A DNA stretch of 52,883 bases. Origin: Tulasnella sp. 424. Its lineage: Eukaryota; Basidiomycota; Agaricomycetes; Cantharellales; Tulasnellaceae. The stretch is from positions 1 through 52,883 of the forward strand of contig WSUB01000234.1 in NCBI GenBank assembly GCA_019633425.1, in the 5' to 3' direction. The notes beneath the pieces were generated by a model that saw nothing but the letters and a program-made list of their open reading frames with translations, had not been told where the DNA came from and did no database searches. Positions 11,931 through 42,141 of the stretch are shown here, in pieces (position 1 is the stretch's first letter; every line of letters starts with the position of its first letter). The position numbers were made by a program, and so were the translations under genes.

Positions 11931-12199
11931 GAGCCTTAGGACCTACTCGATTTGAAAAGTACTGGGCATGGCCCGTTTTGACATTTGAAATGCTCATATA
12001 CGTCGCCCGTACCGCTGGATGTCATCTTGTGCCCTCGTAATTTCAAGTTATCATCCTCAAGGGGGCTTTTCCATACCGAGCTGTGTCATCTACTGAGTAG
12101 TTATCTTGAGCCCCCATTCCGGGTCATGAGATAACATGTATGTTCTCAAATCGTCATCTCTTTGGCTTGGTTGGGTGGCATCTTCTCGTATCAAATAGA

Positions 12200-12720
12200 A
12201 CCTGTCTTCTCTCATCGGCTATACCTACATTCCGATTCTCATGTAGCTGCCACACATTCACCAGCTACGTACGAATGGAAACAAATATATAGCTTTCCAG
12301 ATACGTTCAATCAATTATTTCTATAGGATACTTTCGAGGGTACCAGCCGTGCCATGAATCCCTGGTTGGGAGCTCCGCTGTTGGACAACCAAACCACTGC
12401 ATACGCATATTTCATTGAACCAAAGCCGGAGCCATCGTACGATCGTCTCCCAAGTCAATACCCGCTTCAAATGTTCCTCGCCACTGGCATGGCAGCTGGG
12501 TTTAGGTGCTGGTCATTTCTCATCTATCCTCCACAGTACTTCTCATTGCGCTAGTATAGGGGTTTTGGCCAAACCTCTCCAATCACTTGATATCTGGTGG
12601 CGGGGTGACATAAATAGAATTGGTACTTGGTGTATCTTAGGGAGCTTAATCCAGCGAAACTACCGTGGCGCATCCGGCCCCTCAGGTTCTCATTTTTTCT
12701 CATCTACGTTCACCCGGCAC
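12200..12720. repeat. Left TCTCAT motif cluster
   Basis: Five TCTCAT copies lie near 12203, 12235, 12515, 12540 and 12696, all in one orientation, inside the left end of the giant element. The wider stretch 11931-13159 contains no convincing gene. The copies could be transposase-binding subterminal repeats. Confidence 0.45.
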
Positions 12721-13159
12721 TTCAAGGTTAAAAGCCGCGAAAATACCGTATCTACTAAATACCGATATTTCTGCTTTAATTCATTCAATTCAGTTGACGC
12801 GGTGAAACGAGAGCTGTGCCAAGAGGGAGAAGGAATTCTTCCGAGAACAGCGGCGCTTGTGTTGGCACGATCGAGCTGCAGAAATGACAAATTACTCGGG
12901 CATATGGAGCTAAAATAGATATAGGTGACGAAAGCTCCTCATTTAGTAAGTTTAGTGGGGGTGAGTAACTCCCTCATTTTACCGAAATTAGTAACAAGGC
13001 GGGGGTTCATCTGCTCTACAAATGAGAAGTTCCATAACTTTATCCATAGAATAGCCACGGCTGGAGATATATCAAGCATATAAATACCTGTCCTTCAACA
13101 CCTCCCTCATACTGCTTCCAAGTCCATCCAAACATCGAGAGACCAATACACATGCCAGC

Positions 13160-16100
13160 ATGCGAAAGCTTCGACTTGCAAGGGACACATCTCCCCACCT
13201 CTTCTCCAGAACAATCTCGGCTCAGAATGCAATCGTCTCCCATGTTGAAAGACATGGCTCCGAGCCTGAAGTATCTCAGCGCACAGGACTTTCAGGAATC
13301 CCCACGACCGGCATCCAGCCACTTCTGGACCACGCCACTGCACCTACGGCTCCGTTTGGGACCGACAGCGATGTAAACCTACAAGAGAATCTACGGCCCT
13401 CCAGTGAGCCAGTACCTACAGATACAGTATGTATAAAGATCCTTAATTTCGCCAATGCCACCCTGGTTATCCCTTGCTCACTGGTTTTTCATGGTCAGGT
13501 GGATGGCGATGGCAGAGAACCAAATACAATGGATCTACGTGAAGAGTTCCTCCACCTAATTTACTCTATGGAAGCCCCCCCAACAGCTCTTCAGTGTCAA
13601 ACGTGTAAGATCCAATCTCCTAGGGCGTTCTTTCGCTGCAAGGACTGCTTTGGGGGCAAGCTTCAATGCAACGAGTGCATCAGAGGATCCCATTTTGACG
13701 AAGCCAGTGATCCATTCCACCGAGTCGACAGACTCGTGCAAGGATCGACTTCGGAAGAATCGTACTTTACTCGCGCATCACTGTCTGATCCCGAAATCGG
13801 CGGCACCCTCCACCTTGGTCACCACGGACTGCCTTGCCCTCGCCAGAATACCCAAGATAGTACATCGGTGCGAATACTAGATACAAATGGGATCTTCACC
13901 TATCGAGTCTACCAATGTAGCTGCCTCAACATGGAGACGGGTACCAAGGCACCAGTCGCGCATCAATTCATTTTGGCAGGACTGTTTCCGGCCACATACG
14001 AAACCGTCCGAACGGCATTCACTCTCAGGGCTCTCAAGTCGGCTCGACTGCACCAGATATGCTCCGGAGAGTCAATGTGGGACTTCTACGATGTGGTCCG
14101 CCGTTGGACCAATAACGTTCGGCCCGAAACAGTTCCAGTAAGTGCCCTCAGCAGAGTGCGGGTTTGGACTATGCTCAGTTGCAACGCTGGTTTCATATTA
14201 GGACCTTTACAAACAATTTCGACATGTCTTACATCTCTGGCGTGTACTAACTATGGTCAAATACTCCGGTCACATAAGGCTCCAACTAATTACATTACAT
14301 ACCAATTATAATCGATGATATCTCATTACTGATTATATTAATTATGGGCCATGGCGTATTTACTCTGTAATCAATTACTAATGGGTAAATAATTAGTTTT
14401 TTCTCCCAGGTGACAAACGGGAGGGAGGTCGGAAACTCCTTCAGTTGGTCTCTTGCGGAGGTCCACGAGAAACGTCCGAGACCCACCACACCGATCCAGC
14501 AGCTGTCAATCTCGCCATGCGCAAAACTTTCGGCTCATACAGGCACCTTTATCTCTCTTTTATATCACCCTGCCACTCGTTTTCAACTTCTCGTCAGGGT
14601 AAACCTTACCAAACTGCCTTATCGGACTTCCACACTGACACCACTCAATTGCCCCAACAAGCTAGCACCCGGAGCGCTGGCTCGATGATGATGCGCCGTT
14701 CAGGGCGGTTGTAGCGTGATGCGGAAACATGAGCAAAGTACGTTCCATTTTTGCCTGCTTATCCTCTTCGACTCACTTGTGTTACGGAGCTTTTTGTGCG
14801 CCCCACGTTTCCGTTTACTCTCTGTAGTGGAACCGCCAATCGTCTTGCTCTCTGCGACAGTCAAATACGGAAGAATGAAGGAAAACGAAGGAAAACTTGC
14901 GAAACTAAAAGACCTATTCTCCCGCCTTCCATCATCCTTACCCGAGGGCGGGCGCTTTAAGTTGTATTTAGCCCACACTCTATACCAATGATAATATATT
15001 AGAGGTCCTCAGAGAAACCATTTAACTACTCATTATAATCGATTATTTTCCAACTAATTACCAATTACGATTAAATACGAAATTTCCGTAATCGTAATGT
15101 AATTGGTTGGAGCCTTACGGTCACATCCAGCTCCAAATCCCTCGAGATGCCCTAGTGGTTCGGTGTCCAACATGCCCACGAGTTGGGGTAAACATGCCCC
15201 AAGAATGGAATTTAGATAATCTAAGGTAAATCAATTACTCGAGCTCAAGGAGGGAAGAATATCTGACAGAACCCAAAACAATTGGGACCTTCATCCCCGA
15301 ACAGCCGGCTCAAGTATGCAAGCATGCTTGCAGTCGATGGAAACTTTCACCTCCATCGGAATCATAAAGGAAAGCAAGATTATCCTCTTACACGGAATGC
15401 GGGATTCTGGGTAGATGAGGGTGAATTTGAAGACTATATTGACGCTAAGGGTGCACGGCCTGATACCGCAGAAAAGGTATGCAGGACTTGGTATTTCTTT
15501 CGGATATTGTCAGGCTGAGCTAAACCTTTGCTATAAAGAGCAACAAATGTCACAGTTTTAAAGCCGGAGACCCTTTACGGTCAATGTGGAAGTCGGGAAA
15601 GTCCGTCACTGGTGTGGTGATGGTGAGCTGTGCACGCCATTTCTTCATCCAACCCAATGGGACTGCCGACTTACACAAAGGGGAACGGTGAGAAGTAATT
15701 GAAATCGGGGCTTATTCATATTTAGGTGTACTCACACTCGCCATTCAGATTTGCGTACGTCGATGTTCCCCTTGCGTCAGTTATTTGCCAGCAAGACCCA
15801 CAGCAAAGACACATTCACACATATGATATCGGCTGCAAATACTCAGTGAACTTTAAAAAGCGAATTACTACCTCGATTAGTGGTGATGCAATCGATGCTG
15901 AAGCAGCTTTGAGGGGATCTCTCCCAAAAGACGTTCTCATCGCACCCGAAGACTTCCCAGCGGATTTCGAGATCAAGGTGCCATCCTGGCATGTACTTGG
16001 GCACACACAAGATTGTATTCTTGAAAACAACCTCCGCTACACCCCTTTTGTTGGACGCACTGCCGATGAAGGGGTTGAGACCATCTGGGCAGTCATGAAC

Positions 16101-17834
16101 AAACATCAGTACTCAACACGAGAAATGTCCCATGGTCATAGGAGGGACGTATTAACCGATATTTTTAATGACTACAGCTGGCGCAAGCTAACAAGAGAAG
16201 GTGTGCTACTTTCGCTGGTCGATCATATAGTTGCCCCCTGTGACTGATGCTGTTACTCAACTGAATAGCCAAGCGTGTATCGGACGCTTACTTTGCCGCA
16301 TACCAGGTTTATGTTTCGAAAGAAGCAGAACTGAAGGCAATTGAGGACAACATAGACGCTCAAAAACTCAAGACAATGAGGTCGGATGCCAAGTCACGTG
16401 GATACGAACAATTCGGGGCGGCGTCGCAAAAAGGCAGGTTGAGATGAGAAATCGAGCCACGCTGCTTCTCATCTAACGTCAGATGACATTGGTAACCACC
16501 AGAGCCAAAGTTCTCATTGAGCTCAAGAAGCACGAAGATGAGAGTCTCTCATCCATGCTGGCAGATGACGACGAAGCAATTCGTCCGGCTGTCTCTCATT
16601 CTGGGGCGATGTTTCTAAGCAACGCAATGGACATTGAGGACCTCCAGTATGTCTTCCAAATTCTCATTTGGCGTTTTGTGTTGAACTATTGATTTATTTT
16701 TTTGAAACTCCAGGTACCAGCTTCGTACTCGAAACCTTGAGGAATACATTGCCGAAGGAACTACTGGCACGGACAAACGCAGAGCGCAACATATGAAGAG
16801 CATGGATGCACTCCGCAGAAGAATAGAGGAGCACTTCGAAGCTCTTCTTGTGGTTGCTCCTGGCTTGAATGGCGTCTCACTTGGTCGGGCGCAAGTACCA
16901 AGTTCGCAAGATCTCTACCTCCCGTCATCTGAGTCGTTTACACGGGCGCAGAGGGAGGCATACGGTCTGAAGGCCCTTGGTGATCAAGAAGCTGCTCTCC
17001 GCATTGGAAATGCACATGACTATCTTTCAGGTCTGAAGGACGCCCTAGGACTGTGCAGCCTGCTCATCCAGGTCAAGAAAACGCACATCCGTGGTCAAAT
17101 CAAGACAACCCGGTCAGAGGCAAGCATTGCGAGAGCCGGAAAAGTGGTGCAACGCCAGGAAGCCGGGTATCGCCGGAATTGGAAAGCAATGGTAGCGTTG
17201 GGCGTTCGAACATCGCCGGGCCAACCCGGGCATGGACTTCAAGAACTGCGTGACGAGGATGTTCAGGGCCTCCGCAATATCATCGAGAACCGGGAGTACA
17301 GCGGCAATCCAGCACAGCTTCCTTGGATCTGGCGATCATTCGGAGACTCAACATCTTCCACCGCTTCAGCTTCAGAAGTACAAAGATCAATTGAGTCGTG
17401 GGAGCAGGAAGGTACGGGGGTGCTTTTAAAGTTTCATGAGGACAGCCGGCTTACAAAGTGCCCCAACAGTTCTTAGACTGACATGGCTCCATGTGCAAAC
17501 GTCTAGGGACCGATGGAGGGAGGAGCATGTGCTCCTACAGGCTGAGTTGGAACGTGTCGCGTCAACATTTGAGCATGGGGCCAAGGAGTGGATGGCGATT
17601 CAACTATTGGCAGACCTCGACGATAAGGCCCTGAGAGGTATCCGAGCATATGGGCAAAGAAAAGCCAGCATGTTCGCTCAACTTGCCAAAGAGGCCAACG
17701 TGTATTTTGCTGTGATTGAGAGCCATTGGAATGGCGCTCTGAAGCAGGGCGCTACGTCTGCCGAGCTCGATGACGAAAGCGAGCAAATAGCCGGTGCTCC
17801 GATAGTATTTGAGGAGACAGATGATATCTACTAA
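13160..17834 (+). CDS. KDZ-family transposase with CxC2 cysteine cluster
   Basis: Predicted DDE-type transposase of the Kyakuja-Dileera-Zisupton group. Exons: 13160-13426, 13499-14137, 14179-14241, 15131-15225, 15305-15476, 15539-15687, 15749-16200, 16269-16437, 16503-16646, 16714-17411, 17446-17834. These join in frame to 1078 residues with no stop. Residues about 120-270 form the CxC2 cluster (CQTC, FRCKDCFGGKLQCNEC, LDTNGIF). A CPTCPRVGVNMP segment follows. The core has AVDGNFHLHRN (Asp366), CARHF...DLHKGER, YDIGCKYS (Asp488), PSWHVLGH and GRTADEGVETIW (Glu569/572), then STREMSHGHRRD. These match the family's three acidic blocks. Introns 3 and 10 are uncertain: the former holds a MITE and the latter is only 34 nt. 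ATG 13160 is the start in frame with the CxC2 exon. It probably mobilises the 29.6-kb element and perhaps the 2.2-kb one. Confidence 0.85.
14275..15117. mobile_element. hAT-type MITE inside a KDZ intron
   Basis: An 843-bp insertion with terminal inverted repeats TAAGGCTCCAAC / GTTGGAGCCTTA, flanked by the 8-bp duplication CGGTCACA (14267-14274 and 15118-15125). An 8-bp duplication and a terminus fitting YARNG are typical of hAT. It is AT rich near the ends with no convincing ORF. It lies between the branch-like TACTAAC and the 3' splice site of a KDZ intron. Confidence 0.8.
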
Positions 17835-19561: not shown

Positions 19562-19932
19562 TGTCAGACTCCGATAGAGTATCCGTATTGCGAGGCTGGT
19601 CTCAGAGTCAAGAGGTAACAGAGTAGAGGTGTAAGTTGTTGTATTCGAGAGATCTTTGCTGTAGATAGAACACAAGAGGCAAAGTGAGGAACAACCCTCC
19701 TCACTTAGACTGGTATATAAAGACTGTCGTAGAATATCAGAGAATGTCATGGAAGCGCTTACGCGTTCTATCCAATGCTGACGCGTCGTCTGAGTATGGA
19801 CCGTGCGGTAGTCGTGAGGCGCTGACTGATCATATGAGTAAATGCCTTGAGGTTTCCTCCTGGGTTGGAACGAGTATTCAGCCATATCCGGATGTCCGTT
19901 CTTATCTTATCAATTAGGCCATGGTCGTGACA
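19562..19932 (-). repeat. 3' LTR of gypsy element
   Basis: A 371-bp repeat, TGTCAGACTCC at one end and GGTCGTGACA at the other. It matches 25595-25965 except at three positions. Confidence 0.95.
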
Positions 19933-19947
19933 TCACTCCCCTCCAAG
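19933..19947 (-). other. Polypurine tract of gypsy element
   Basis: Reads TTGGAGGGGAGTGA on the - strand, immediately before the 3' LTR. This is the usual primer for plus-strand synthesis in LTR elements. Confidence 0.6.
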
Positions 19948-19962
19948 ACCGAGCGAGTCGAT

Positions 19963-22900
19963 TTAGTGGTTCTTGCTCGATCGACGCTGCGAGGTTCTTC
20001 TTTCTGTCGATACTGCATCGGGGTATCGCTTGTGGAACTCGGCAATCTTTTCAGTTGCGTTTTCTAAATTGCCCACATCTTCCCAAGAGTTGTGTCCTTC
20101 ACCGTAGCCTACCCATCTGACAAGGTATTGAAGCTTGCGTCGCCAGTATCGCGAGTTGAGGATTTCGTCGACTTCGTATTCTTCTTCACCATCAATTACT
20201 TCAGGCGGCGGTTCTTCTTCTATTCGACCAGGAATTGTATCCGTCTTGTATGGGGTCAAGAGCGAGACATGGAACACGTTGTGGATCTTCATGCTTGGTG
20301 GGAGCTCCAACTGGTATGCATGGGTCGACACCTTCTTCATGATTTTGTATGGCCCGAGACGTTTTGGTCCTAACTTCTTCGTCGGCCGGTCAGTTCGAAT
20401 ATTGGTTCCTTCTAGCAATACTAGGTCTCCGACTTCCAACACTGGAGTTTCGCTGTGTCTTCGATTGAAGAATTCTGCATGTTTTGCTTGTGCGAGTTTC
20501 ATGCTAGCTTGCAATTCTTCTCGGATGTTCGCAAATCGATTGGCCAATTCTTCTGCTCCTGGGCTCGACTGATCTCGGCTTGGAACGTTGGTGAACGTTG
20601 GATTGAACCCATAGTTCGCATAGAAGGGGGACATGCCTATCGTACTATGGTGTGCGTTGTTGTATGCAAATTCTGCCAAGGGAAGTGCTTGGGACCAATT
20701 GTCTTGTTGGTGAGACGTATAAAAACGGAGGTACGTTTCGAGTGTTGCGTTCGTTCGTTCAGTTTGACCGTCTGTCTGTGGGTGGTACGCCGTGGAGAAC
20801 TTGGGTTGGATGCCTAGTCGCTTGTAGACTTCTCTTATCAGTTTCGATTCGAAATTCGGCCCTCGATCCGATATGGTTTCGATTGGTAGTCCATGCAGTT
20901 TCCAGACATTGTTCAGGAGGAGTTCCACTACCCCCTCCGTATCCACTTCGCTTATAGTCTTGACAAAATGCGCCTGTTTAGTCAATCGACACATTGCTAC
21001 AAAGATTGCGGTGTACCCATTGGACTCCGGTAACTCCGTTATTAAGTCGTATGATACCAACTGCCAGGGTCCATCCGGAATCGGTAGTGGTTTCAACAGC
21101 CCGTGTTCTTTCACGTGTTGGTTTTTGTTCCTCTGACACAAGTCACATTGCTCCACGTACTGATTGACGTAACTCTTTTGGGACGGCCAGTAGTACCCTC
21201 GCGTCACAAGTTCCAACGTCTTTGCTTGCCCTGGGTGTCCAGCAATTCTTGAATTGTGGTAGAGTTCCAGGATTTTTCGTTTTACATCAGCGTTGTTTGG
21301 AACGTAGATTCTTCCCATACGGTACAGTATTCCATCTTCCCATTTGAGGTCCTTTACTGCTTTTCGAACCTCTACCGGTGCGGTGGTTGGATCGGCGCTT
21401 AAGAATTCGATTGTTGCCTTTAGGTCTTCGTCCGCCTGTATTGTTTCTTTTATCAGGTCTACAATTTGTGCGTCTGACACATATATTGCTGCGATGGTTG
21501 CAAAGGCTTCGTTGCTGAATATTGTCTGGTTTCTTTTGTCGTCATTAGCCCCCCCTTCAGGTCGCAGATCCGATCGTCGCGACAATGTGTCTGGTTTTCC
21601 TGACATTACTCCTGGACGGTAGCCAATATGGTAGTTGTAATGGGTTAGGAGATCGGCCCATCTTGCTTGTCGTTGGTTGGTAATTTTGGCATTTTTAAAG
21701 TATCGGAGGTTCCTATGATCTGTGATGACATTTACTGGGTCTTCGGTGCCTTGCAGGTATGTCCTCCAATGTTCCAGGGCTTTTACAACGGCTAACATCT
21801 CCTTGTCAAAGATATCGTAGTTCTGCTCAGCTGGCGATAGGGACTTAGACAAGAAGGCAACTGGGTGTTCCCTCTTGTCGTCTTGCTTTTGTGATAGGAT
21901 TGCTCCATAGGCATAGTTTGAGGCGTCGGTTTCGAGCACGTACAGCTTGGCAGGGTCCGGGTGGGCGAGAACCGGGGCTGTTGTTATTGCTTCCTTGATT
22001 GCTTCGAAGGCGATTTGTTGAAGTTTTCCCCATGTGAACGGGACATCCTTTCTTTCCAGGTTGTGTAAGGGTCTTGCCATTTTTGCAAAATCTTTAATGA
22101 ACCTTCGATAGAAGTTCGCAAACCCTAGGAACAATCGAATGTCGGTGACATTGCGTGGCTTTTTCCATTCCTTGATTGCCTCAACCTTCCATTGGTCCAT
22201 TCGGAACCCTTTTTCGTTGACGTGGACTCTAAGCTATTCTGTTTCTGGGACATGAAACTCGCACTTCTTAGCCCTACAGAACAGGCGATACTTGCGGAAC
22301 TGGGATAGTATCGTTTTGTTCGTTTCGATGTGTGGTGGTAGTTCTTTTGCGAATGACAGTGTGTCGTCCAAGTAATTTGTTGCCGTTAGGTCCAATACTG
22401 GTGCGAGTACATCGTTCATGAAGCGTTGGAATACTGCGGGTGCGTTGCACAAACCAAAGTGCATAACCTTGAATTCATACAGACCCCATCTGGTCTTGAA
22501 GGCCGTCTTCCACTCGTCTCCTGGTTTGATCCGTATTAGATTATATCCGTTTCGCAGGTCAAATCGAGAAAATATTTTCGATCCCCTTAGCAGGTTCATG
22601 GTTTCATCCGTTCGTGGGAGTGGGAATTGATCCTTTATTGTGATATCATTGAGTTTTCTCCAGTCCATTACAAGGCGTTTTTTGCCATCTTTCTTTGGGA
22701 CGTAGAAGCAGGCTGCTGCCACTGGCGAATTGGACTTCTGAATAAATCCCTTTTTTAACATGTCGTCAAGCCAGGTACGCAGCTCCTTGTTGTCAGTATC
22801 CGACATCGGATATAGTCCAGATGGTTTTGGTAACGGTGCTCCAGGGACCAGGTCGATTGCTAAGTCGTACTGCCGATGCGGAGGCATTTCGTCACATGCT

Positions 22901-23721
22901 TCTTCATCAAACACATCCAAAAATTCATGGTATTCGGGCGGTACAATTTCCTCCGGTAGTTTTTCTTCTTTGGCATGTTGCGACGCAATATGAGCGGATA
23001 TATTCTTCAGCCTTGGCTCGCGACTTTCTTCGATGGCTGCGATCAACTCTTCCAAGTCCTCCTCATCATACTGACAATTTTCTATCAGTGGTGTATACGG
23101 CTTTCCATCGGTTCGTCCCGTTACGTCTGGTGCACTGTCCAAGCATCGATCTGCACATTGTTTACTTGCGAATACCACTCGGTTTTGTTCAAAGTCGATA
23201 TCAGGGTTGTGCAGCTGGAGCCATGGGAGTCCTAGTATAACGGGGTGGTTTCCTATTGGGGCAACATCTAGCGCAATACTTTCACTGTGGCTCCCTACCC
23301 GTAGTTCTGCTTGCACTTCTTCCTCAATCTGTCCAAGGGATCTTCCGTCTACGTCTTTTACTGGGACTACCCTTTCCTTGGTTTGGGTTTTGATTTGATG
23401 TTTTTCTACGAATTTCTTATTAATGAAGGATGATGTTGCACCGGTGTCGATCATAGCGGTTGGTCTTGTTTCTGATCCTGCGACAGTGAGTGTAGTGGGC
23501 ACGACGATATGTCTGGGGCTCGGGTTTTCCATGGACGCAATAGATTCCATATTATCGAAAACATGTGTGCGTAATACCCGTTCCAGGACTTGAGCTCTTG
23601 ACTGCGTGCTGTTCAAGAGCTTTCGTCTTTTCCCGACTCTTCTTCGGTTGCTGTCCCAGTCTCTGTTGCCCGTATCATTGCTGCTCTTGCGGCTCCTCCT
23701 TTCTTCTTTAGTTCTGCACAA
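19963..23721 (-). pseudogene. Gypsy pol polyprotein with one nonsense codon
   Basis: Single reading frame from 23721 to 19963 broken only by TAG at 22236-22234, where a Tyr codon is usual after HVPETE. Domains in order: aspartic protease (DTGATSSFI), reverse transcriptase (FDLRNGYNLIRI, active site YLDD), RNase H (ETDASNYAYGAILS, ITDHRNLRYF), integrase zinc-binding region (H-H then CDLCQRNK), integrase core (SYDLITELPES, ISDRGPNFES, HPQTDGQTERTN), and a C-terminal chromodomain (YEVDEILNSR...YLVRWVGYG). The chromodomain marks it as a chromovirus, which targets heterochromatin. It lies in the -1 frame relative to gag, with a 109-nt overlap, suggesting programmed -1 frameshifting. The stop may make this copy defective. 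Confidence 0.95.
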
Positions 23722-24800
23722 TCGCTCTTCCGATGCCCCTTTCCTCCACAGAATAGACAGAGTCCCTCCTTGAACCTTCGTTGTCGTTCTTCAGGGGAGA
23801 TTGGTCCTCGGCGTATGACCGCCGCTCCAATATCCATTGGGATAGGGTCATTGGTAGTGAGGTTGAGGAGAGGGGTCGTGGGTGTGTGGTACTCTCGTCG
23901 TGGTGCTGGGTTTGGCCTATGAGTGTTACCGGTTTCCTCTTTCTTTTCCTGCTTGCAAGTCCAAATACGATTGTCGATTTTCTCTACCAGTCGGATATAG
24001 TCGTCCAATGCTGCTGGTGCGTCTATTTTGGCGAGTTCATCCTTGATTTCCGATTTTAGCCCTTTATAGTAGTGGTACTTGAGCTGGTCGTCACCGGTCC
24101 ATCCTAGGATCGTGATAAGTTGTTGGAAGTCGCTTGTATACGCTGTTGCCGACTTGAGTTGCTTAAGGTTCGTCAACGTTCGCATTGCACTCCCCTTTTC
24201 GTCTGGGTCGTAGAAGGCGGCTTCAAAGAGGTCATAGAAACTGGTCCAGACCGTTGCCCTGTTGCTGTTGACCCTATTGATAACGTTGGTCCTGATTGGG
24301 TGTGCCCACAGCGCTGCTTTGTCTTGAAGGAGCATCAGTACGAATTGAATTTTAAGGGAGTCGTTCGGGAAGTCTTGTGGTCGGAGGTTGAAATACAGTT
24401 GACACGCTTGGATGAAGGAGCGCGCGTGTGCCCCCCTACCCCCTTTGAAAGGTTCGGGTTTCACCGGCTTCAATCCTCCTCCGGTTCCGGCGGTCCCCGT
24501 AATGCTCATCGTTGTGGGAATATTACTGAGTCCATTGGTAAGGTTTTGGGTTGCCGCATTTAGTCCGCTAATTGCTGCGGTTACTGCTCCTCCTACGTTT
24601 AATGATGTCATAGTCCCTTGCATGGTATTGAGTTGGTTCGTGGCATGTGTAGCGGCGGCATTTGCTTGGTCGACTTCATTTCGTGCGTTCGTGAGTTGTT
24701 GGGATAGTATCTGGACGTTGTTACTCATTATATTCAATGCGGCCCGCAGGTCGTCGTTGCTGAGACTGCTAAAGTCTACTGCGTCGAAGCTTGTATCCAT
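23613..24800 (-). CDS. Gypsy Gag
   Basis: A 395-residue capsid/nucleocapsid precursor, ATG at 24800. It has an N-terminal coiled-coil-like stretch, a capsid region with FKGGRGAHARSFIQACQLYF and later LTNLKQLKSATAYTSDFQQ, and a CCHC zinc knuckle CLFCGGKGHRKSDC near residue 350. It ends in an acidic/Ser tail that overlaps the start of pol. The product packages element RNA in cytoplasmic particles. Confidence 0.9.
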   Translation of the reverse strand: MDTSFDAVDFSSLSNDDLRAALNIMSNNVQILSQQLTNARNEVDQANAAATHATNQLNTMQGTMTSLNVGGAVTAAISGLNAATQNLTNGLSNIPTTMSITGTAGTGGGLKPVKPEPFKGGRGAHARSFIQACQLYFNLRPQDFPNDSLKIQFVLMLLQDKAALWAHPIRTNVINRVNSNRATVWTSFYDLFEAAFYDPDEKGSAMRTLTNLKQLKSATAYTSDFQQLITILGWTGDDQLKYHYYKGLKSEIKDELAKIDAPAALDDYIRLVEKIDNRIWTCKQEKKEETGNTHRPNPAPRREYHTPTTPLLNLTTNDPIPMDIGAAVIRRGPISPEERQRRFKEGLCLFCGGKGHRKSDCAELKKKGGAARAAMIRATETGTATEEESGKDESS

Positions 24801-25594
24801 GGCGACTGAAGGCGGTGGATGAAGTGGTTAAGGGGAAGTATGTGGTATGCTCGGTGGTACTGCGGGGGATAAGGCTCGTAAGGGATGAAAATCTTGAGCT
24901 CCTTGGTCGAAAAGTACGAGTAAGGGAAGACTAGTTGAAGGAGTCTCTTCTGGACTCTTGTTCGCTTGCTGACGTCAGCGTAATAGATTTCTTGGTTCTG
25001 GTAGGCTTTCGCCGCTCGTACGTGATATTGGTTGAGGATACCTCCTCCAAAGGTTCATGGGATATACGTGGGTGTTTCGAGGGGGATTCCTAGGCTTGTT
25101 TGATCCTATAGGGTCCTCTTCTTCGTTTTCGGATACTAGGAGTTGTACTTCAAGTTCCTCGATTATGTTGTCGATGTCAGCAGGGGGTTCATCGGCCGAG
25201 ACTACTTGTTTTGGTCGATTGCTTCAGTGGTTCTTGTAGACCCACTTCTTAGTTCGTTCCTTGAGTCTTTGCTCCCACTGTTCGTTGGTGAGCGTGAGGG
25301 CGACTTTCTTGGCGGTTTGCCTTGCCGACTGCTTTTGCTGCTGTTTCTTGGCGATGCGTACTGCAAGCGGTGCCACTAGAAATTTGTCGAGAATGTTTTA
25401 GGATCGTGAGGTAATTTCTCAAGAAAAGTCGGTTACTTTGGGTCCAGTAGGGGTTCTTAACAGAGTGTTCGAGGTGGTCGATGAGGTCGCAGGGTTCTTG
25501 ACGAAAGGTAAATCCGTCCCACGTCTCGGGTGACAGAGTTTCGAAAGATCTTGTATCCAGGATGACAAGGTACACCTTTGGTGACTCTGCCTAA
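24801..25594 (-). other. Gypsy leader between 5' LTR and gag
   Basis: About 794 bp, unusually long for a leader. It has one open stretch of 108 codons at 25575-25249 (-), beginning MYLVILDTRSFETLSPE, that is not recognised. It could be an extra leader ORF or chance. Confidence 0.4.
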
Positions 25595-25965
25595 TGTCAG
25601 ACTCCAATAGAGTATCCGTATCGTGAGGCTGGTCTCAGAGTCAAGAGGTAACAGAGTAGAGGTGTAAGTTGTTGTATTCGAGAGATCTTTGCTGTAGATA
25701 GAACACAAGAGGCAAAGTGAGGAACAACCCTCCTCACTTAGACTGGTATATAAAGACTGTCGTAGAATATCAGAGAATGTCATGGAAGCGCTTACGCGTT
25801 CTATCCAATGCTGACGCGTCGTCTGAGTATGGACCGTGCGGTAGTCGTGAGGCGCTGACTGATCATATGAGTAAATGCCTTGAGGTTTCCTCCTGGGTTG
25901 GAACGAGTATTCAGCCATATCCGGATGTCCGTTCTTATCTTATCAATTAGGCCATGGTCGTGACA
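25595..25965 (-). repeat. 5' LTR of gypsy element
   Basis: A 371-bp partner of 19562-19932. On the - strand it contains a TATATA-type core promoter sequence (CTTTATATACC, near 25746-25756). Confidence 0.95.
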
Positions 25966-29583: not shown

Positions 29584-30864
29584 ATGTCGATCTCAGCAAT
29601 GGCCGAAGCGTTCTCTTCACCTGAAATAAGCACTCGCCTAATTCCCGTACAAGCCGAAAGGTTGAGCAGTGATGATGAGTCTATCAGTACTGGCGATGGA
29701 AGCCCTTCCAACCGGCGCGTATATCCTGCCTTGCCCCACCCCTACCGTGAAGGAAATGAAAAGGTACAGGCAATTCGCGATGAACAGGGGATGCTGTAAG
29801 TGCACTTCATCTCATATTTTCATTGCGGATACCTGCTTACTTTGAATGTGGAGGCTCCTCCACTATCACGGCTACCTAGAGATTGACGTCGACGTTTTGC
29901 ATTTGGACCTTACAAAGCTGCGCGAGGGGAATGAAGTTAGTGATAGAATGCTGACTTTCCTACTTCTGTGAGTGTCCTCATAGTCATTTACTGTGTGCCA
30001 GACGCATTGACGCCTCATAACCCAAAGTCAAAGCCACGGGGTCTCACATGAGGCTTTTCGATGGCGACCAGATGAAGTACTCATCCTTCCGTGTGTCTTT
30101 GGGAGCGGCCTAATGGCTCTCGATGAGAACGCCAGTCCTGCCGACGTTCACTCCATGCTATTGCGCCTGCATTCACAGACTGTCAGCTACACCCTTGAGC
30201 AAATTTGGCATTCAACCTTGCTTCTCATTCCGGTTAGGATTGAATGTCAGAACGTCCTTTTGGCGATCAGCAATGCACAGCTTGCAATCTCCCGGTCTGC
30301 ATCTGCACGCCGCATCCATGAGGTACTTCATGGGCATTCAAAACCGGATCGTGAGCCCTTCGCAATTCTCTTTCTGAACTCAGCTCCATTTTCCAAACCA
30401 AGAAGGCTGCCAAAGTTAACATTTCTCATCCGCAAGTACCTAGACGTGCTTTGGAAGCAGCTGTACGGGTCGGATTTAGAATTCATTGACTGGGTTGACA
30501 TTAAAGTAAGTCAAGCTCCCACGAGACTGTATCGCCTGCACATTGACTTCGTCTATATGTAAAGGTTCCATGTCAGGATATCATCTCTGATGGGGGGCTT
30601 CATGTTGTTCATAACGCCGAAGTTTTGATGAGACCTGGAGTCACAGACCGACTTCGCCAGGCGCACCAGGTGCGTAGCTTCGGATAAGGACCTACAGCTG
30701 ATTCGTTAATTCCAAACTTCCCCTGGTTCTAGCACATTTACCAGATAAAGATGAAGGAATGGTACTCGATATTCAATCCCCTGCTTATGCGGGGTGACTT
30801 CTATCGACATCGCAAAGTCATGGTGGTGGAGCAAGAAGCCCAGCTATGGCAGATTGACCTGTAA
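29584..30864 (+). CDS. Ulp1-like (C48 peptidase fold) protein lacking catalytic residues
   Basis: Five exons join in frame to 346 residues: 29584-29795, 29854-29967, 30028-30505, 30565-30669, 30733-30864. The pattern follows Ulp1/SENP proteases: an entry block (LEIDVDVLHLDLTKLREGNE), a beta strand where HW is expected but ECQNVLLAIS is seen, ILFLNSAP where the catalytic Asp (usually DS) is Asn, and VPCQDIISDGGLHVVHNAE where D-C-G is D-G-G (Gly278). The oxyanion Gln is kept. All three catalytic positions appear changed, so it is probably not a protease. It could bind SUMO or act in the transposon. Fold assignment is by motif spacing only. Confidence 0.5.
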
Positions 30865-31184: not shown

Positions 31185-34100
31185 ATGGACGGCGAACCGC
31201 GATCCCTCCAAGATGCCAACCGAGCTGCCATTCCTCCCTCTTGTGACGTTCGCAAATCCTCGGTCCAGGGAGCAACTCCCCAGGTGAATAGTTGGATTAA
31301 CCATCTCAGCAACATCTCTGACAGAGCTCTCGCCTCCTTCTACCGCCGTCTAATCTCTTGCGCAGGCCCAAAAGAGCAAACGAAAACGACGTGGCACCAC
31401 AGACTCGAGCAGCGACAGCGAACGTGAATCAAATAACGACAGTGAAAGTGACTCAAGCAGCTCGGACATAAGCCCAGAACAATGGAAAATCATTCGGAAA
31501 GAGAGGCGAAAGCTGCAGAAGAAACTGAAACAGTTGGAGCTGTTAGCAGCGATGGCAAAAGGTATGTACGCTTTCAGTGCGGATGACCCCAGCGTCCTCA
31601 CTCTCCTTCACCTCCATGCTCTCACAACGGAAAATTTACAACCTATTTCAATACCCTTAATCCTGTTCCAACAACCTCGTGTATGGCGAAGGCAAAGACG
31701 ATTCGATTTCAGACTCAACTGACACAGGTACATACATTTTTTCCTCACAATGCAGCTGGTTTAGTTGCCCCAGCACAGCTTTTCAGTCTTTATTTCGGAG
31801 CTAACAACGACGTTGTTGGGTTTTCTATGCGCAGAGAAGGGGAGGAAACGTCGAAAAAAAAAGAAACGAAGTGGCCAGCTAGATACCCATCCGACGTCCC
31901 AGCCAGAGGATGAGAGTCTTTCTCTGAAGACTCCTACCACCGTGAACTCAACAATGCCAACCCCGACCACCCTCCCCAGGAATGTGCGGCCCAATGTCAA
32001 TAGTAGCAGCCGTCCGTCATCGACTACCCTTCCTGTTCCAGCACCACCCTCGAAATCCACCTTTGCCACGGCTCCCAACGGCGAGGAACCTGATACTTTA
32101 CATATAGGCCTTGCTCCGGCATCATCACCTTCAGTGCGGCCGCCTACAAGTGACGCCCCTCTACCAGAGCCGATGCCTGCGCCTGCGCCTTCTGATTCCG
32201 TCGGCAATGATCTCAATCTTCCGGAACTCCCTCCCCCTCCATCTAATCAGGTAGACCGCCAGCAGGAAGAGCAACTGCTTGATCCACCTTCCAACCCCAT
32301 CCCCATCCATGAAGACCTTATTTTTAATGAAGCAAATCTTCCTGACAAGGAATTGGAGGACCACGGAAATCCCACCATGGTGCCTCCAGCCGAGGGATAC
32401 TGTAAGTTGATCTGACTCTTGATTCTTGTCTGCCTTGCTAACCTGGTACCACAGTTGCTACCATGCATTATCCTAATCGCAAGCTACCGCTAAAGATGCC
32501 CACGGGTGCCATTACAAAGGAAGCATATAGATTCCGCTACAACGGTGGGTATATTCGGTGACTTTGCGTGATGGGTACTTGAATGCTCATCTTCCATTCG
32601 ACGTGCTCGTTCCAGGGCTGACCTCCGACGATATCTTATCCAAAATCCAAGTCATACAGCAGCGATCGGAGGCGTGCCCAGCTGTCTTTCAGCACGTGCT
32701 CAAGAGCTCCGCCAAGGGGAATTTTGACGTCCAGGTTCACTGGTGGCTCACCCCTGTTTTGCAGAAGTACCACCTCATTGGAGATGACCGTCAAGCACGC
32801 TCCCGCTACCTTCGAGGATCCGTTCTTCCGGATCTGTTCACAGCCTTTCCCGACCTGCACCCTGATTATATCCAGGTTCGAGATTCAGATATGGAAAAGG
32901 CCTACCTCGACAAAACGTGCAACACCATCAGCGCTGCCTACCATCAGCTCAGACTGAAGCTGAAAGTTCCTGGCAAGCTGGAAGTTGTGGATAAGGATGT
33001 CATCAAGTGGCTGTCGGAGCCCTCGCAGCCACCACGTCCCCATGATATATGGGCTCGAAGCCAACTAGATCGTCCCAGAGCCAGCGATTCAGAGGGAGCC
33101 CAATCAGAGCCGAGCCAGTTCGCCAAAGACTGGCAGGAGAAGAAAGCCACATGCCTGGAGGAGCTGGGTGCTGAAGCTTGGGAGGCAAATCGCCTCTCCA
33201 TTGAGCAGGACTTCCGCAAGAATGCTTTCGAAAAACTCCCGGATGCCGAGCGAAAGGTCTGGACCCGTCAAGCGATGGCGAAAAACAAACCGGTCGACAA
33301 GACGACCGCCTTCGTCCGCGGCCTTCCATTCATTACGCATGTTCTTAAACGCTTTACCGACCTTGCCCAAGTGCCTATGACGATTCTCCTCGGTGCGCCC
33401 GACCCACAAGAGCCGGGGAAGCTTTTGATATACCAGTACGTCTGCCCTATTTTTCTAACACGCTGGAGCTAACGGCTAGCACTAGCGATACCTATGTCGG
33501 CCCAGCCCCAGCACACATTGAAGACTTTTGGAGCGGACCGAGCCAGCTCGGAACTCGCCAGATCCTCCCTGAGTGGCGGCGTTTTGTTGCTGACGTCTTT
33601 CAAAGTATGTACCCACTGACGCTGTTCCCACATTATCCAACGGTCAAGAGCTGACTCAGCCCTTCAGAATCTCAGGACACGGTTCAAGTGGAGCCACAGG
33701 CCCTTCCAGAGTTTGCAGTTCCCCCGCCGACTCCTGGTCTGGCAGCTGAGAAAGTCGTCCATGTCAACGGGATCCGTTTCATCGTCACCTCCCCTCTGCA
33801 AAACTGGTGCGTGCGCAGCGCAGAGTGCGACGAAATCGTGAAGAACCTCCAAATCTCACTTGGGGACTCATGGAGTATGTCCGGCCTTCTTTATTACTTC
33901 ACCGCCCAAACTGACGTTCATATATTTGCTGTTAGAGGAAACATTTGGACGTGCCCGGGTAGACTTCAATGCAATGCGGAACCGAACCTCGGACTTCACT
34001 TCCAGCGAATATCTCCCCCGAAGCTGCAAGAAGATGCAAGCAGAGCCAGGAGGTGTCATGACCCTCGTTGATGCGCTTGAGGAAACGATTTGCGTCCCTT

Positions 34101-37100
34101 CCGACCCCAAGACCATGGACCCCCCTGTGCTGGAGGCGTGGTACAAGATGTTCGTGGACGATTCAATTCCCGAAGCTCGCCGTTTCCGGTGGGTCGATTC
34201 AAAGGTGGCCGTGCCAGCTCGAACCAAAAAGATTCCAAGCTCCATGCAAATCGAAGCACCCAAGACTTCTAGCCGGCCTTCTAGCAAAGGGAAAGGGAAA
34301 GCCTCAACCTCCGCACGCTCAAATCGGAAGCCAGACCACAAGGCCATGGCTTCGGAGGAGAACTCCCCCTCGGACTATGCAGAGCAAAGCGAAACAAGTG
34401 CAGGAGAAGGCCCGCCCAATCCACGGGAGCGCCAACCTACTGTCTCAAGGAGCGGTCACGTATCAGCGGCACCTCCCATCCTTGCCCCCATATCTACCCG
34501 GCGCCCACGTTCCGCAGGCCAGGCTCCAACCACCGCAACACCATCATCCAACACCGATACGGACGTTCGCCCTACTGATAGTCATGTCGTACTGCCTGAT
34601 CCGGTTGGCACTAGGAGGCCTGCCCAAGCCGAACTCCCCTCCTGGCACGGCATGGCCACATCCGGCACGGTTTTGACCACTCCTCGCAAGACCACCTTGG
34701 GGCCGGCAGCAATCCCAAACTCCAACACCTTCTTCAAGCTCTATGCGGCTGAAGATCGTTATCCTCTTTACCTGCCGGTTAGTTCAAACGACCGCTGGTG
34801 TTTCGGACAGTCGCTTACGATTTTTCAGGCACAGGCAATTGAGCAAATCAATTCTTTCGAGTATTTCCACAACCTCCCGCTCCCTTCAGGCATAAACAAT
34901 AACGCTGGGGTCGACCTGCCGCCCCTGGCCGACCTCATCACATGCTGCATTGACCTGGATCTTTTGTTTCCTATGGATGAAGCTGAGAAGGAGGTAATGC
35001 CAGTTCTTTTTCGCGTTCATCTCTGTTCTCACATGTGATATTTTTGGAAGGATGGACCATACGACATTCAGACGCCAATTGACGCTCTCTGGGCAAACCT
35101 CGAAGATCACAAAAAGCCACTCCCCACCTACCTCTTTGCATCAGGCCTCTGCCGGAAATCAAATCAGCTTATCGTTCCGGCCGTCGTTCTTCCCGCAGTC
35201 GGGCATGTCCAAGAGCAACTCAACGCTCTCGAGGGCATCAACATGTGCAGTATGGCGCCGGGTGCCCCGCCACAATTCCAATCCTGGACGCATTACCTGG
35301 TGGTAACAGCACAGTTCTTAAGCTTCTTGTATTCGATTCCTCCGAGCGAGACCCCTTGTCAGCTATCCCAGGAACTTGCAAGGTTCAGCACGCGGCTCAC
35401 CGAAATTACCTGCATCTATCTCATCTATCGTTACACCACCTGCACCATGTCAGCGTTCATAGCCTCTCACCCTAAAGCAACAGTAAAACCCACCATCGCC
35501 AGCTCCACTTCGACACTTGGAACAAGATGGTTAGAAGCGATTCACCCCTTGTTTAACCCCCTTAACGGCGTACGTAGCATATCATGCTTGAGTTGACATT
35601 TTCTGATGAACTGCCTTTCAGAGGAGCTTGGTCGATGTCCTCAGCCAGAACTGGGCCCAACAGGCTGATGACATGCAGCCGGAAGACAGCCTCCCCTTTT
35701 TTCATCTCCACGATGTTTCAAAACGATGGCTGGTCATCAACCCTACGTTAACTTTAGAACACGCAATCGTTGACTTTGCAGTGGCGGTCAACCTTGAGAC
35801 GGAAGAGTTTGGACAGCTAGCAACGTACCAGCAATATTCACTCCTCGCTGCAATTTTCGCGCTGACTGCAAGTCCGCACCGGGAAGCTTCAGACTCTGAT
35901 TGGATTCATGTTGTCGAAACAATCCTCGACAAGCTCGAATTCATGAGTCGTGGTGGAGAGCTGTATGAGAATGAACATCGTCCGTGATGTAGTCTGTTGT
36001 AATGACGTTCATCTCACTGATACTCTTTTCCGCAGAACCTATCCCTCCACCCCCAACAATGCTAGAAGTCGCTCCATCAGGCCCCGGTTCCGACCTTGTT
36101 CCTTCTCGCCATCCATCGGTTGGCTCACCACCTCCAAGCCCTCGGCAGAAGAGCTCTCAGACCAGTTCGGATAGCTCCCTCATGCCAACCGACCCTCTGC
36201 CCAGTATATCGGCCGATTGCCAAGAAGCAAACACGGAAAACACAGTCGCACTGCAAGAAGAAATCCCAACGATCCCCCAATACCCCCGGCCTAAATCTCG
36301 TATTGGCGGAAGGTTGAGATGGATTCCAGGGGACGTAATTAGGCTCACAGCCCGAGGTGTCTCCAAGGAGGTGAAGATCCGGCAGAAGGGTGCCGATCCG
36401 AACAACCTAGTCCTCACTTGGATAACGAGCCAGGAGCCTGTTCTTTCCAAAAACGGTTCACCTATCCCTCTCCCACCGTTCGACAAAAATATCCTTGTCC
36501 ATCCCAGTCCGTTCATGCCAGCTCTCGATCGAGACTGCTTTATCCGAGATCAGCAGCTCCCTCCATTCCTTCCATTCCACGAAATCCTAAGCGGTATGCA
36601 TGACGACTATCTCCTGGACCTTTTCGAGAAGAATCCGGAAAGCCGGCCTCCAAGCCCTGAGCCTGAAGGGGACGAGATTGACAATCTCCTGGATGAAGCT
36701 AAAGTGCAGGCTCTCCAGCTCCACATCGAGCGTCGGCGCCAGTTTCGAGAGTCGCTCGGCCTGCCTCCTGACCCTCAGGATCTGGCAGATGAAGAAAAAC
36801 TGGCATTGCTGCTAAAATCTACAACTCACGCACCACCTGATCCTCACACCGCCATGCAGCTGCCACCCCCACCTTCGGAGCGACTTCCATCAGCAGAGCC
36901 TTGGCCAAGTTCTTCCGGTAGCGCTGAGCCTAGTGGCATTAAACAACCAGATGGCCCACATGCTCCAGGGCATGAACGTGGCGAAGGCACTGAGTCTAGC
37001 GGTCAGCCGATGTCCACCAACAACAGGCTCGCCGTCGTCCCTACAAATACCGACCCACACCCTGTAGAAGTTAATCCTGGCAAAGCTAACATCAAACCAA

Positions 37101-37625
37101 AATGTGGGAGACCCAGGTCCGCTGTTGCAAGCCGGCCATCTACAGGTCCCCAGATGCCGGATGGAGCTAATCAGCGTAAGTGCCACCCAATACTTGCCAT
37201 GAGGTTCCACCCATCACTCACTTGCACCCACTCCCATAGTACCAGCGAGCTTAAGTGTACCTGCTGCTACGACACCTCGCAGAACCACCCGCCCACGGAA
37301 GCCAGTAATTGAACCACAAGTCCCCCCGACAAGGAAGGCTCCGGCAAAGTTGAAAGTTCCAGCCACGGCTTCAGGTTCAGGATCCAAACCGAAAGACGCC
37401 CATCAGCCAGAGTTGGAGGAAGCAGCCCAAGGCCGGAAGAGAAAGATACCAGCAGCAGCAGGCAACGGAAGACTCAAGGCCCTGGTGGAGTCGGCTGCAC
37501 CTCCTCGCCAAGATTCAGGCAGTGCCATTCGGACCAGGTCAAAGTCGAAAGCTGCTCAAGCTGCTGTAGAGCCGGAAGACGGGATCGAGGAGCCTCCAGC
37601 AAAGAAAGTAAGGCTCAAGGGCTGA
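31185..37625 (+). CDS. Large uncharacterised nuclear-type protein (transposon cargo)
   Basis: Not recognised. A chain of + strand exons joins in phase and gives roughly 1,700 residues. Clear ones are 31185-31283, 31366-31561, about 31835-32401, 32455-32544, 32616-33435, 33486-33604, 33668-33874, 33936-34993, 35051-35569, 35622-about 35980, about 36034-37174 and about 37231-37625. N-terminus: a basic KRKRRG stretch, a Ser/Asp-rich acidic run and a short coiled coil (about 31470-31560). Next comes KGRKRRKKKKRSG, then long Pro/Ser-rich linkers. A globular region (32616-33600, with VHWWLTPVLQKYHLI and IWARSQLDRPRAS) and a helical one (35051-35960) follow. The tail has RPRKP (AT-hook-like) and ends PAKKVRLKG, a likely nuclear signal. 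Exon joins near 31562-31834 and 35980 are uncertain. It may be two genes. Confidence 0.55.
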
Positions 37626-37849: not shown

Positions 37850-39460
37850 TCCGGTCTCTCATCTTCTCATGCCACAATCTCCCATTTCGTATAAGGTACC
37901 CATTTCTCATCAAGAGCTCTCTCCATCTCACTCGTATATCTCGTTTCTCATTCTGCGGTTCTCATGTCATCGCCAGGCCAAGGGCTGATTTTTCCCAACA
38001 GGCTCGGTACTCTCAATCGAGCGAAATCCAGTAGCATGGATCCGCAGCCTGCGTTGTGCTGTTTGCCGTGTTTTTCTGGGCGGAACTTTCTCATCTTCGA
38101 AGCCGGGTGGACCGTTCTCAGCTTCGAAGCCGGGCGGACTGTTCTCATCCCAACTTGTTAACACCGTTCTCATCAAGAGCGCATTTCCGTTCAGTGTATT
38201 TCTTTACTTTCTCATTGTGCGAGTCCCCTCTCCCTTCTCACCTATCACGTATAACCAACATCTCATTCCCCGCATTCAGGCTCGGTGTTCTCATTTGAAC
38301 AAAAGCCGTTCTCTTTCGATGGATAGTACATGCACATGAAATTCCTGGTCATGAACCGGAACCATTAATCAGCTCAGCCCCAACATTCTTCATAGCAAGC
38401 TGGGTGCCTCAGGAGTTTTGGAGGTGCTCGACCTGTTCGGAGTGCTCAACAGATTTCGGAAAGGGTTTCGAGTGCTTCGAATGGGCTTTTCCAGCCAATC
38501 AACGAGCCCCGAGTACATTCCAACTCGGTTCGAGTAAGCGGAAAACCTCGCTCCATTCCGAGCCAAGCACTCTCGAGTCCTCCCGGAGTACCCTTGAGCC
38601 AGTCCCAAAACTCCTGATGCTGCGCCCCAGCCATGTAGGCTCTTTGGGCAATACCTCTATTACATCTGATTCACTGAGGCCAGCTTACTGTATAGTCTTG
38701 TGTGCTTGGTCAATTGGAGAGCTATGCTTGGAGTGTGTTCGATCTCTGAGCCCAGTCGATTGGTGACTTGGAAAGCTATATCAAAATTGCCGGGCCCGGT
38801 GTGAAGCGCCGAAATGTTTGCACACCGAAGCGGGCAATCGGCTTTTTATATTGGCCGCTCCTGTTTTTCCCGATCACATCACCGTTAAATTCTTTGTCAT
38901 TGCACTCCCCGGTCTTCTGATTTGTGCAGCATCTTATAGCTGACTAGAGGATTGTGTACTTGTGTGTTATGTTAAACCGCCTCTCACGTCCCTTCAAATA
39001 CTTCCTCTCTCATCACGTCTCATGATTGCCATGTACTTCCACTCTCATGCTAATCCATCATTTCTCATCCCGCAGTATTCTCTCACCAGGATCTCATGTC
39101 GGCGTCACAACACTCCTTCCTCAGTCATGTAGCCACCCTTGTACGGCGTTGGAACCTCCGCTTGCCCTCGCTGATGAGAATATAGTGCCCAATCCCGGCG
39201 ACCAACATCGGGCCGTTCTCATCTAGCCGCAAGCTGTCTCATCTTGTTAAGATCTCACCGTTCTCATTTAGGCGCAAACTGTCTCATCTCGTTAAGATCT
39301 CATCACCTCGGCCCCGAGCTCTCATCGTATTCGACCTCGAGCTCTCATCGTACTCGACCCCAAGTTGGATCCCATCTCATCCTGCCGACTCCACCTAATT
39401 TATGCCTCAGTTACCTAGCTCAATCGTCGCATCTCATCTATCATCTCATTAAGCTCCTGC
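37850..39460. repeat. Right TCTCAT motif cluster
   Basis: About 26 TCTCAT copies, nearly all in one orientation, in two blocks (37855-38295 and 39005-39455). This far exceeds the chance rate of about one per 4 kb per strand. The orientation is opposite to the ATGAGA cluster at 17940-19330. No convincing gene is present. Confidence 0.6.
38408..38625. repeat. Imperfect inverted repeat
   Basis: Outer arms CAGGAGTTTTGG and CCAAAACTCCTG, with weaker complementarity inward (CGAGTGCTT / AAGCACTCTCG). It could be a small MITE between the two TCTCAT blocks. No duplication was identified. Confidence 0.4.
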
Positions 39461-39540
39461 TGGCTGGGCAGCCGATTGCGTGAGTAGCCATGTTTGAGGG
39501 AATGTCAGGGGTTTGCGGGGCACCGCTCCAGGCAACGAAG

Positions 39541-40680: not shown

Positions 40681-40923
40681 CATCAACCTGGCGCTGACGC
40701 TCACGGGCGGGACGGATGACCATCAAAATGGTGTTGGGTGATGCGGTGGTGGTGGGCGTGACTGGCCAGGGCGCGATTCGTGCATCTCCCGTTTTTGAAG
40801 CTCTGCTGGTACCATAATCTCTTCACGTCGGCTTCGGACTCTGCAAGTTCCTCCGGCTAGACATCCAGTGAAAACCATTATTCTTGTTTAGAATCATAAC
40901 CGATTTCATATTTCATTGATTTC

Positions 40924-41322
40924 CTATTCATGAATCCCGTCCAGGGGGGCAATGCCCCTGTTTCCATTCCATGGGAACGCTATGCGTCTCATGGTTGAGC
41001 AAAGATGAGAGTTCAAACGAGCAAAGACAAGAACTCCCTCTTCTTGTTTGAACCCCACCTGGACGCTGTACAAAATTCGTTGAAATACCACCTTGATTTC
41101 TTTTCCACGCGTTCTGGGCCAATTATCGGAACTTTTGAAACACACAAAGGCTTCGCAGGGTAGGTTGCCTATCGAATTCCGGTATTCTTGTTCACCGGAA
41201 GTCATGTCCAAAGGTACCTTTCTAACCTCGGTTATGTGAGCCTCGACAGCCGCGTCGTAGGCGGAGAACCTCGCTTGGTGAAAGTAGGTGGGATATAGCC
41301 CTATGAGATGGCAAGGTCTCAT
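40924..41322 (-). CDS. Hypothetical 132-residue protein near the right end of the giant element
   Basis: Open frame starting MRPCHLIGLYPTYFHQARFS at 41322. Composition is ordinary rather than low-complexity, but no family is recognised. It may be an exon or fragment of a captured gene, or chance. Confidence 0.25.
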   Translation of the reverse strand: MRPCHLIGLYPTYFHQARFSAYDAAVEAHITEVRKVPLDMTSGEQEYRNSIGNLPCEAFVCFKSSDNWPRTRGKEIKVVFQRILYSVQVGFKQEEGVLVFARLNSHLCSTMRRIAFPWNGNRGIAPLDGIHE

Positions 41323-41505
41323 GGTGTCTCATGTAAATAGTACGCACTCTGTGTTCTGGATGAGAGCAGCTACCTCGTTTTAGCCCTTGTTCTCAGGTTC
41401 ACTGGGGGAAATGAGATCAGGCTCTGCAGGCGGCCTATAGTGACTTTTCAAATCTCAAAATGGGGGGTCCCACGTACATTTGTAATTTCATAGCTACCAA
41501 AGGTG

Positions 41506-42119: not shown

Positions 42120-42141
42120 CAAAAGGAGTTGCAGCAATTGT

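Follow-up and report, generated by a model that had tools for sequence, protein, structure and literature searches.

We analysed a window of 52,883 nucleotides, positions 1 to 52,883 of contig WSUB01000234.1 from Tulasnella sp. 424 (assembly GCA_019633425.1). A repeated array of genes, kinase- and TPR-like as judged by eye from the open reading frames, makes up the window, and at 11931-41505 lies a 29,575-bp element on the + strand, which begins with GAGCCTTAGG on the transposase side and ends with CCAAAGGTG on the other. The element carries a KDZ transposase gene (13160-17831, + strand), a TET/JBP-like dioxygenase gene (26416-28301, − strand), a Ulp1/SENP-like gene (29599-30861, + strand) and a gene for a large protein of unknown fold (31954-37622, + strand). 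We read it as a giant KDZ transposon with exact borders and TET-like cargo, into which two insertions later landed.

Borders, target duplication and empty site

Sequence reading and flank alignment placed 7-bp target duplications, GAGTGTT, at 11924-11930 on the left and 41506-41512 on the right, exactly the duplication that an earlier note on this DNA had reported. Because the array has paralogous copies in the window, it provides a built-in control for the empty site. The paralogous repeat at 4195-6165 contains GAGTGTT once, at 5531-5537, in agreement with the uninterrupted target that the note had placed near 5531. Within the window, the left flank (10558-11930) aligned with 4195-5537 at 83% identity and the right flank (41506-42148) with 5531-6165 at 89%; the joined flanks aligned with 4195-6165 in a single run (2,042 columns, 84.3%), and it is at the duplication that the alignment breaks.

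The window holds nine occurrences of GAGTGTT or its complement, so that finding this 7-mer is no proof in itself, and the possibility that the borders reflect an assembly join or a chance 7-mer coincidence was judged without read coverage. We nevertheless consider that possibility extremely improbable. The alignment with the paralogous repeat breaks at exactly both border positions, and the end motifs recur in a short family and in two sister elements with 7-bp duplications of their own, so we take the borders to be real. Proteins from a 58,413-bp contig of Tulasnella sp. 425 also match three of the genes, with the junctions there unseen.

The genome (46.8 Mb in 448 contigs) was searched with both ends of the element. 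The left end returned one match, its own; the right end returned its own match and one partial match on contig C257, where 107550-107687 aligned with 41352-41489, near the right end, at 72% identity with the terminus itself unmatched. Across 95-121 kb of C257, the only end motif that a scan picked up was of the CACC type and 12 kb off, and we leave this locus as what may be a relic, not a second copy. The earlier note had suggested looking for other copies with the same ends; the genome yielded no second copy of the family and two sister families with related ends.

Interrupted transposase gene and nested retrotransposon

The exons of the transposase gene, with the start codon placed by eye and exon edges approximate, gave matches to the KDZ domain (PF18758; 85.3 bits against a Pfam cut-off of 26.6, E 6e-24) and the CxC2 domain (70.6 bits against 27, E 1e-19). 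These matches uphold the earlier identification of the transposase, and the presence of both a KDZ domain and a CxC-type cysteine cluster assigns the block, by domain content, to the KDZ superfamily of transposons. The gene had been called intact, and this does not hold: it is split by an 843-bp insertion (14275-15117) with inverted ends of 24 nt and an 8-bp duplication, CGGTCACA, at 14267-14274 and 15118-15125. A single frame of the sister element on contig C418 (149075-149338) corresponds to two window pieces, 14205-14288 and 15119-15208. The 843-bp segment has 21 matches on 12 contigs of the genome, window included, and is therefore a repeat inserted here, which we take from the length of its duplication to be hAT-like. 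Because the transposase gene is split, the window copy is predicted to be immobile by itself and is probably no longer self-mobile, autonomy requiring an uninterrupted transposase; a related transposase could possibly move it in trans.

The other insertion is a 6.4-kb long terminal repeat (LTR) retrotransposon on the − strand (19562-25965), with LTRs of 371 bp at 19562-19932 and 25595-25965 that are 99.2% identical and a duplication of CAGAC. It arrived after the element, which measures about 23.2 kb without it. The retrotransposon looks Gypsy-like by eye, and its pol frame is split by one stop into open reading frames at 22234-23790 and 19963-22233, despite the near-identity of its LTRs. The single 29,575-bp cargo block of the earlier note is thus delimited as described, and includes a nested retrotransposon that had been overlooked.

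Two sister elements in the same genome

The genome was queried with one exon per gene, and the counts, window included, were nine matches for the transposase, ten for the TET-like gene and three each for the Ulp1-like and large-protein genes. All matches to the last two genes lie in the window, C418 and contig C147, where their order and orientation relative to the transposase and TET-like genes are equal, so that the order transposase, TET/JBP-like, Ulp1-like, large protein is found in all three giant elements. Identities to the window in C418 and C147, respectively, were 52% and 39% for the transposase exon, 61% and 49% for the TET-like protein, 38% and 29% for the Ulp1-like protein and 42% and 28% for the large protein. 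Self-matches of the window and reciprocal matches were omitted from the contig comparison.

The C418 element (131148-151344, 20,197 bp) has the duplication CGGTTTA, and its ends match a diverged paralogous array unit to about 10 bp (pieces 67-78% identical). The C147 element (30860-53961, 23,102 bp) has the duplication CTAAATC; its transposase-side end was set by homology to a short element in the window (42149-44352), and its far end was located through a search for a copy of the duplication with CACC directly after it and so is not fully independent, with no empty site. The transposase-side ends read GAGCCTTAGG in the window, GAGCCATAGT in C418 and GAGCCTTAGT in C147, and the opposite ends CACCTTTGGT, CACCTATGGT and CACCGTTAGC, giving GAGCC at one end and CACC at the other in each element. 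All three also have degenerate inverted repeats at equal offset from both ends (25-95 in the window, 19-60 in C418 and 42-60 in C147), with scores reached by 0/500, 2/500 and 0/500 shuffles, respectively. Perfect 7-bp duplications flank all five insertions read at both ends, three giant and two short. The delimited KDZ-TET unit envisaged at the outset is in this way backed by two sisters, in a copy whose transposase is broken and which holds a nested retrotransposon. All three giant elements lie in or beside diverged repeated gene arrays (window 1-11930 and 44353-52883, and the C418 and C147 flanks).

Cargo proteins

The arginine at the active site of TET/JBP enzymes is counted among their catalytic-centre residues together with H-x-D and a further histidine, and the TET/JBP-like protein of the window (P0005) keeps all of them: H60, D62, H114 and R125 are nearly invariant in 15 aligned sequences, one fragment being without the region. 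Its 24 database relatives include proteins from Tulasnella, Lentinula, Trametes, Marasmius, Paramarasmius and Serendipita, and the relatives P0008, P0011 and P0012 carry a Tet_JBP domain in the database. The TET/JBP-like dioxygenase claimed for the block is confirmed. In the PDB, the C418 TET-like protein also hit TAL-type repeats (E 1.8e-6 and 0.099); we rejected these hits as chance, the stretches scoring <3 bits each.

The Ulp1-like protein (P0029), a candidate for the C48 fold, is likewise present as claimed, though weak by sequence. A profile of five Ulp1-like sequences matched SENP7 at 3.6e-4, and a structural model with a mean predicted local distance difference test (pLDDT) score of only 44.6 gave SENP- or NEDD8-type proteases as its first 22 PDB matches, four of them at E <= 0.001. 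Ulp1/SENP (C48) proteases use a histidine, an acid and a cysteine for catalysis. With the Cys region placed by eye, these places read Q-N, N and G in the window, where they are replaced, H, D and C in C418, and H, N and C in C147. The His site is H-W in C147, Q-N in the window, Q-Y in Tulasnella sp. 417 and H-R in T. calospora, and C418 keeps H; the Cys site is S-C-G in C147, D-G-G in the window, E-G-G in sp. 417, K-E-A in T. calospora and H-C-A in C418. Because the catalytic Cys is gone from the Ulp1-like proteins of three isolates while the frame stays open, the window protein appears to be a pseudo-protease with another role, and not a case of single-copy decay.

The large protein, also upheld, corresponds to the database protein P0001 (1,697 amino acids). 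It had no match in Pfam, its core model (mean pLDDT 48.9) was too poor for a fold search, and its four database relatives are all from Tulasnella. Over aligned exons, the window genes closely reproduce database proteins of Tulasnella sp. 424 and sp. 425, with near-identity, and the differences look like splice choices. In sp. 408, the large protein and a TET-like gene lie on one 22,708-bp contig (locus tags 005983 and 005985), and in T. calospora the record of a TET-like gene and that of the Ulp1-like gene each give a contig of 35,048 bp. In P0004 of sp. 417, the Ulp1-like and large proteins are joined in one annotation, which reflects either a genuine fusion or two gene models run together.

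Methylation trace and proposed function

We consider it likely that the element is a giant cut-and-paste transposon of the KDZ type (Kyakuja-like), and that its dioxygenase would protect the element's DNA against silencing by cytosine methylation. The transposase would have acted by binding the GAGCC../CACC.. ends and cutting with a 7-bp stagger, and the TET-like enzyme, a predicted eraser of DNA-methylation marks whose role in methylation editing is read from sequence, would oxidise methylcytosine on the element. Mean CpG observed/expected ratios of 1-kb windows were 0.83 for the window element, 0.88 for C418 and 0.90 for C147, against 1.02, 1.02 and 1.07 in their respective flanks, the flank composition excluding the stretch between the giant element of the window and the far side of its short neighbour. 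Pooled, the depletion in elements (65 windows) versus flanks (58 windows) had p 2e-11, with adjacent windows not independent. The host has seven C5-methylase-like matches, on three contigs.

That the TET-like enzyme acts otherwise, on another base or on host DNA at large, seems to us unlikely. It would accord with the departure of the window protein from its sister proteins right after H-x-D and with parts of a published account (Kojima 2025; PMC12730594), which reports CcTET activity on N6-methyladenine (6mA) too, allows other activities for diverged types and speculates that TET enzymes of Agaricomycetes act without target specificity. The CpG depletion of all three giant elements and the C5-methylase-like genes of the host fit, by contrast, cytosine methylation of the elements.

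Several observations weigh against an anti-silencing KDZ transposon as we describe it. The empty site comes from a paralogous repeat of the same window, with none from another strain, and the family of the window element has one copy in the genome. GpC shifts the opposite way from CpG (1.02 versus 0.94), the CpG depletion could come partly from base composition, and the nested LTR retrotransposon keeps a CpG ratio of 0.97. Tet_JBP scored below its Pfam cut-off (14.8 bits against 34.9, and 12.7 in a second search), and a PDB sequence search with the TET-like exon ranked a PKHD-type hydroxylase first (0.0049) and NgTET next (0.057 and 0.081). The Ulp1-like protein also fell short of the Pfam C48 cut-off (18.9 bits against 20.7, E 0.0014).

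Motif blocks and a targeting proposal

Motif counts revealed a TTCTCAT/TCTCATC-rich block (37857-39439, + strand) that separates the large gene from the CACC end. All three giant elements contain a stretch rich in repeats close to their CACC ends, each with a different dominant 7-mer: in the last 4 kb, TCTCATC occurs 15 times in the window element, ATGGGAA 28 times in C418 and TCCCGGA ten times in C147. The top 7-mer counts in 100 shuffles were 6, 12 and 7, respectively, and those of control windows were 8 (middle 4-kb element windows) and 7 (flanks); the C147 case is weak because its count stands so close to the shuffle maximum and the element-middle windows. All 38 copies of TTCTCAT in the window lie inside the element, nine within gene spans, with none in the nested retrotransposon or the flanks; TCTCATC is less clean, with some copies in flanks. 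The motifs were chosen from the same data, so this specificity is partly by construction, and TTCTCAT is not a motif of the C418 or C147 elements.

By analogy with plant VANC elements, these blocks suggest motif-guided, sequence-specific self-demethylation, in which the large protein, perhaps with the Ulp1-like protein as partner, would bring the TET-like enzyme to the element. A fuller version, in which the elements would be self-contained demethylation machines, the large, fast-evolving protein reading its own motif and, with a Ulp1-fold partner turned pseudo-protease in this lineage, loading TET so that each family erases its own silencing marks and no others, is a speculation that we regard as doubtful. 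The same doubt attaches to the candidate own-element motifs, TTCTCATC in the window, AATGGGAA in one sister and TCCCGGA in the other.

Cut-and-paste transposons often carry subterminal repeats, and the motifs may be transposase-binding repeats of this kind. There is a substantial chance, somewhat short of even, that the element is a TET-bearing Kyakuja-like transposon as already published, in which the Ulp1-like and large genes serve transposition or ride as passengers and neither they nor the motif blocks play any part in targeting. The 7-bp duplications and TET cargo match published elements, the motif also occurs in the first 1.5 kb of the window element (five copies versus 0.2 expected), and the Ulp1-like protein is without its catalytic residues. 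The retention of the Ulp1-like and large genes in all three giant elements at only 28-42% protein identity argues against this reading, as does the sharing of a contig by at least two of the genes in other Tulasnella isolates.

If targeting by the large protein is real, giant KDZ elements would be a fungal, enzymatic counterpart of plant VANC. How a transposon-borne TET is steered, and whether it benefits the element or modifies the genome at large, are open questions in the field. The targeting question becomes testable because a single genome holds three delimited sisters, every one with a large protein and a motif block of its own, together with short relatives.

Short relatives and other KDZ loci

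The right flank of the window contains a short non-autonomous element with KDZ-type ends (42149-44352, + strand), 605-bp inverted repeats (93%) and the 7-bp duplication CGGTGAT at 42142-42148 and 44353-44359. A search with its first 615 bp gave 24 matches on 13 contigs of the genome, one of them a 63-bp stretch (83%) at the terminus of the C147 giant element. A copy on contig C404, also read at both ends, has the duplication CGATGCT, so that both short copies read in this way have 7-bp duplications. From the KDZ-type ends and these duplications we conclude that short elements with such ends have moved, and a C147-type transposase would have moved them.

Across the genome, PF18758 has 12 matches on 10 contigs. 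A TET-like match shares the contig in six of the nine transposase places (window, C418, C147, C179, C307 and C234), and the exon-query search found none on the contigs of the other three (C170, C206 and C312). The two genes are about 12 kb apart in the window, with the retrotransposon between them, and about 4 kb or less apart in C418 and C147, where they converge, and in C179, C307 and C234, where they diverge. The loci at C307 1-15770 and C234 1-26880 form a second KDZ-TET lineage with diverging genes; they are 85% alike over 6.2 kb, and C234 has about 6.5 kb extra between 4955 and 11477. Their CpG ratios, 0.81 and 0.71, respectively, were the lowest found. C307 and C234 returned no match to profiles of the Ulp1-like and large proteins at E <= 1, and an end scan of all of C307 and C234 and of C179:130001-140000 gave no GAGCC-type end and only unpaired CACC-type ends (two in C234 and one in C179).

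Comparison with known systems

Plant transposons of the MULE type also carry a Ulp1-family gene as cargo, to our knowledge without TET, and VANC is not, as far as we know, a TET-type enzyme. Our literature search found no KDZ element linked with a Ulp1 protease.

The earlier note expected this block to be the first to define the mobile entity, and in this it was anticipated: complete TET-bearing Kyakuja DNA transposons with 7-bp duplications are described in the main text of Kojima (2025; PMC12730594) from the agaricomycete orders Auriculariales, Agaricales, Boletales, Polyporales and Russulales. The Tulasnella elements resemble these in their KDZ-type transposase, TET/JBP-like gene, 7-bp duplications and delimited, complete form, and differ in host order, Tulasnella belonging to the Cantharellales. 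Two Kyakuja families of L. bicolor are described there as having 5'-CA..TG-3' ends and no terminal inverted repeats, whereas the Tulasnella elements end in CACC/GAGCC with degenerate in-register repeats; because the ends are not CA..TG in any of the three giant elements, we call them only Kyakuja-like. The same main text, supplements aside, does not mention Ulp1, SUMO or a protease.

KDZ1-KDZ3 of Cryptococcus are likewise active or delimited, but the passages describing them (PMC12810828) give lengths of ~9-11 kb, inverted repeats of 139-241 bp, 4-8-bp duplications and CxC1, with no mention of TET. KDZ elements of Pleurotus ostreatus share the CxC2 cluster ahead of the KDZ domain, and the account of Marasmius oreades refers to a supplement for a summary of the inverted-repeat motifs of the KDZ and Plavaka groups; the sections on these two species mention no Ulp1-like cargo (PMC7641404, PMC8290104). 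A functional parallel, one of our own drawing, is with the VANC proteins of Arabidopsis VANDAL elements, which provide element-encoded anti-silencing and whose targets, in the account of Hosaka et al. (PMC5735166), are often tandem repeats that vary between related elements; in the Tulasnella elements targeting is a proposal, and the VANDAL elements have another transposase and belong to another kingdom. The Tulasnella transposon belongs to a known kind, from which it departs in its cargo, its ends and the order of its host, and what appears new, as far as we have seen, is the four-gene layout, its occurrence in Tulasnella, the degenerate in-register terminal repeats and a short-motif block that sits toward the same end in all three elements but differs between them.

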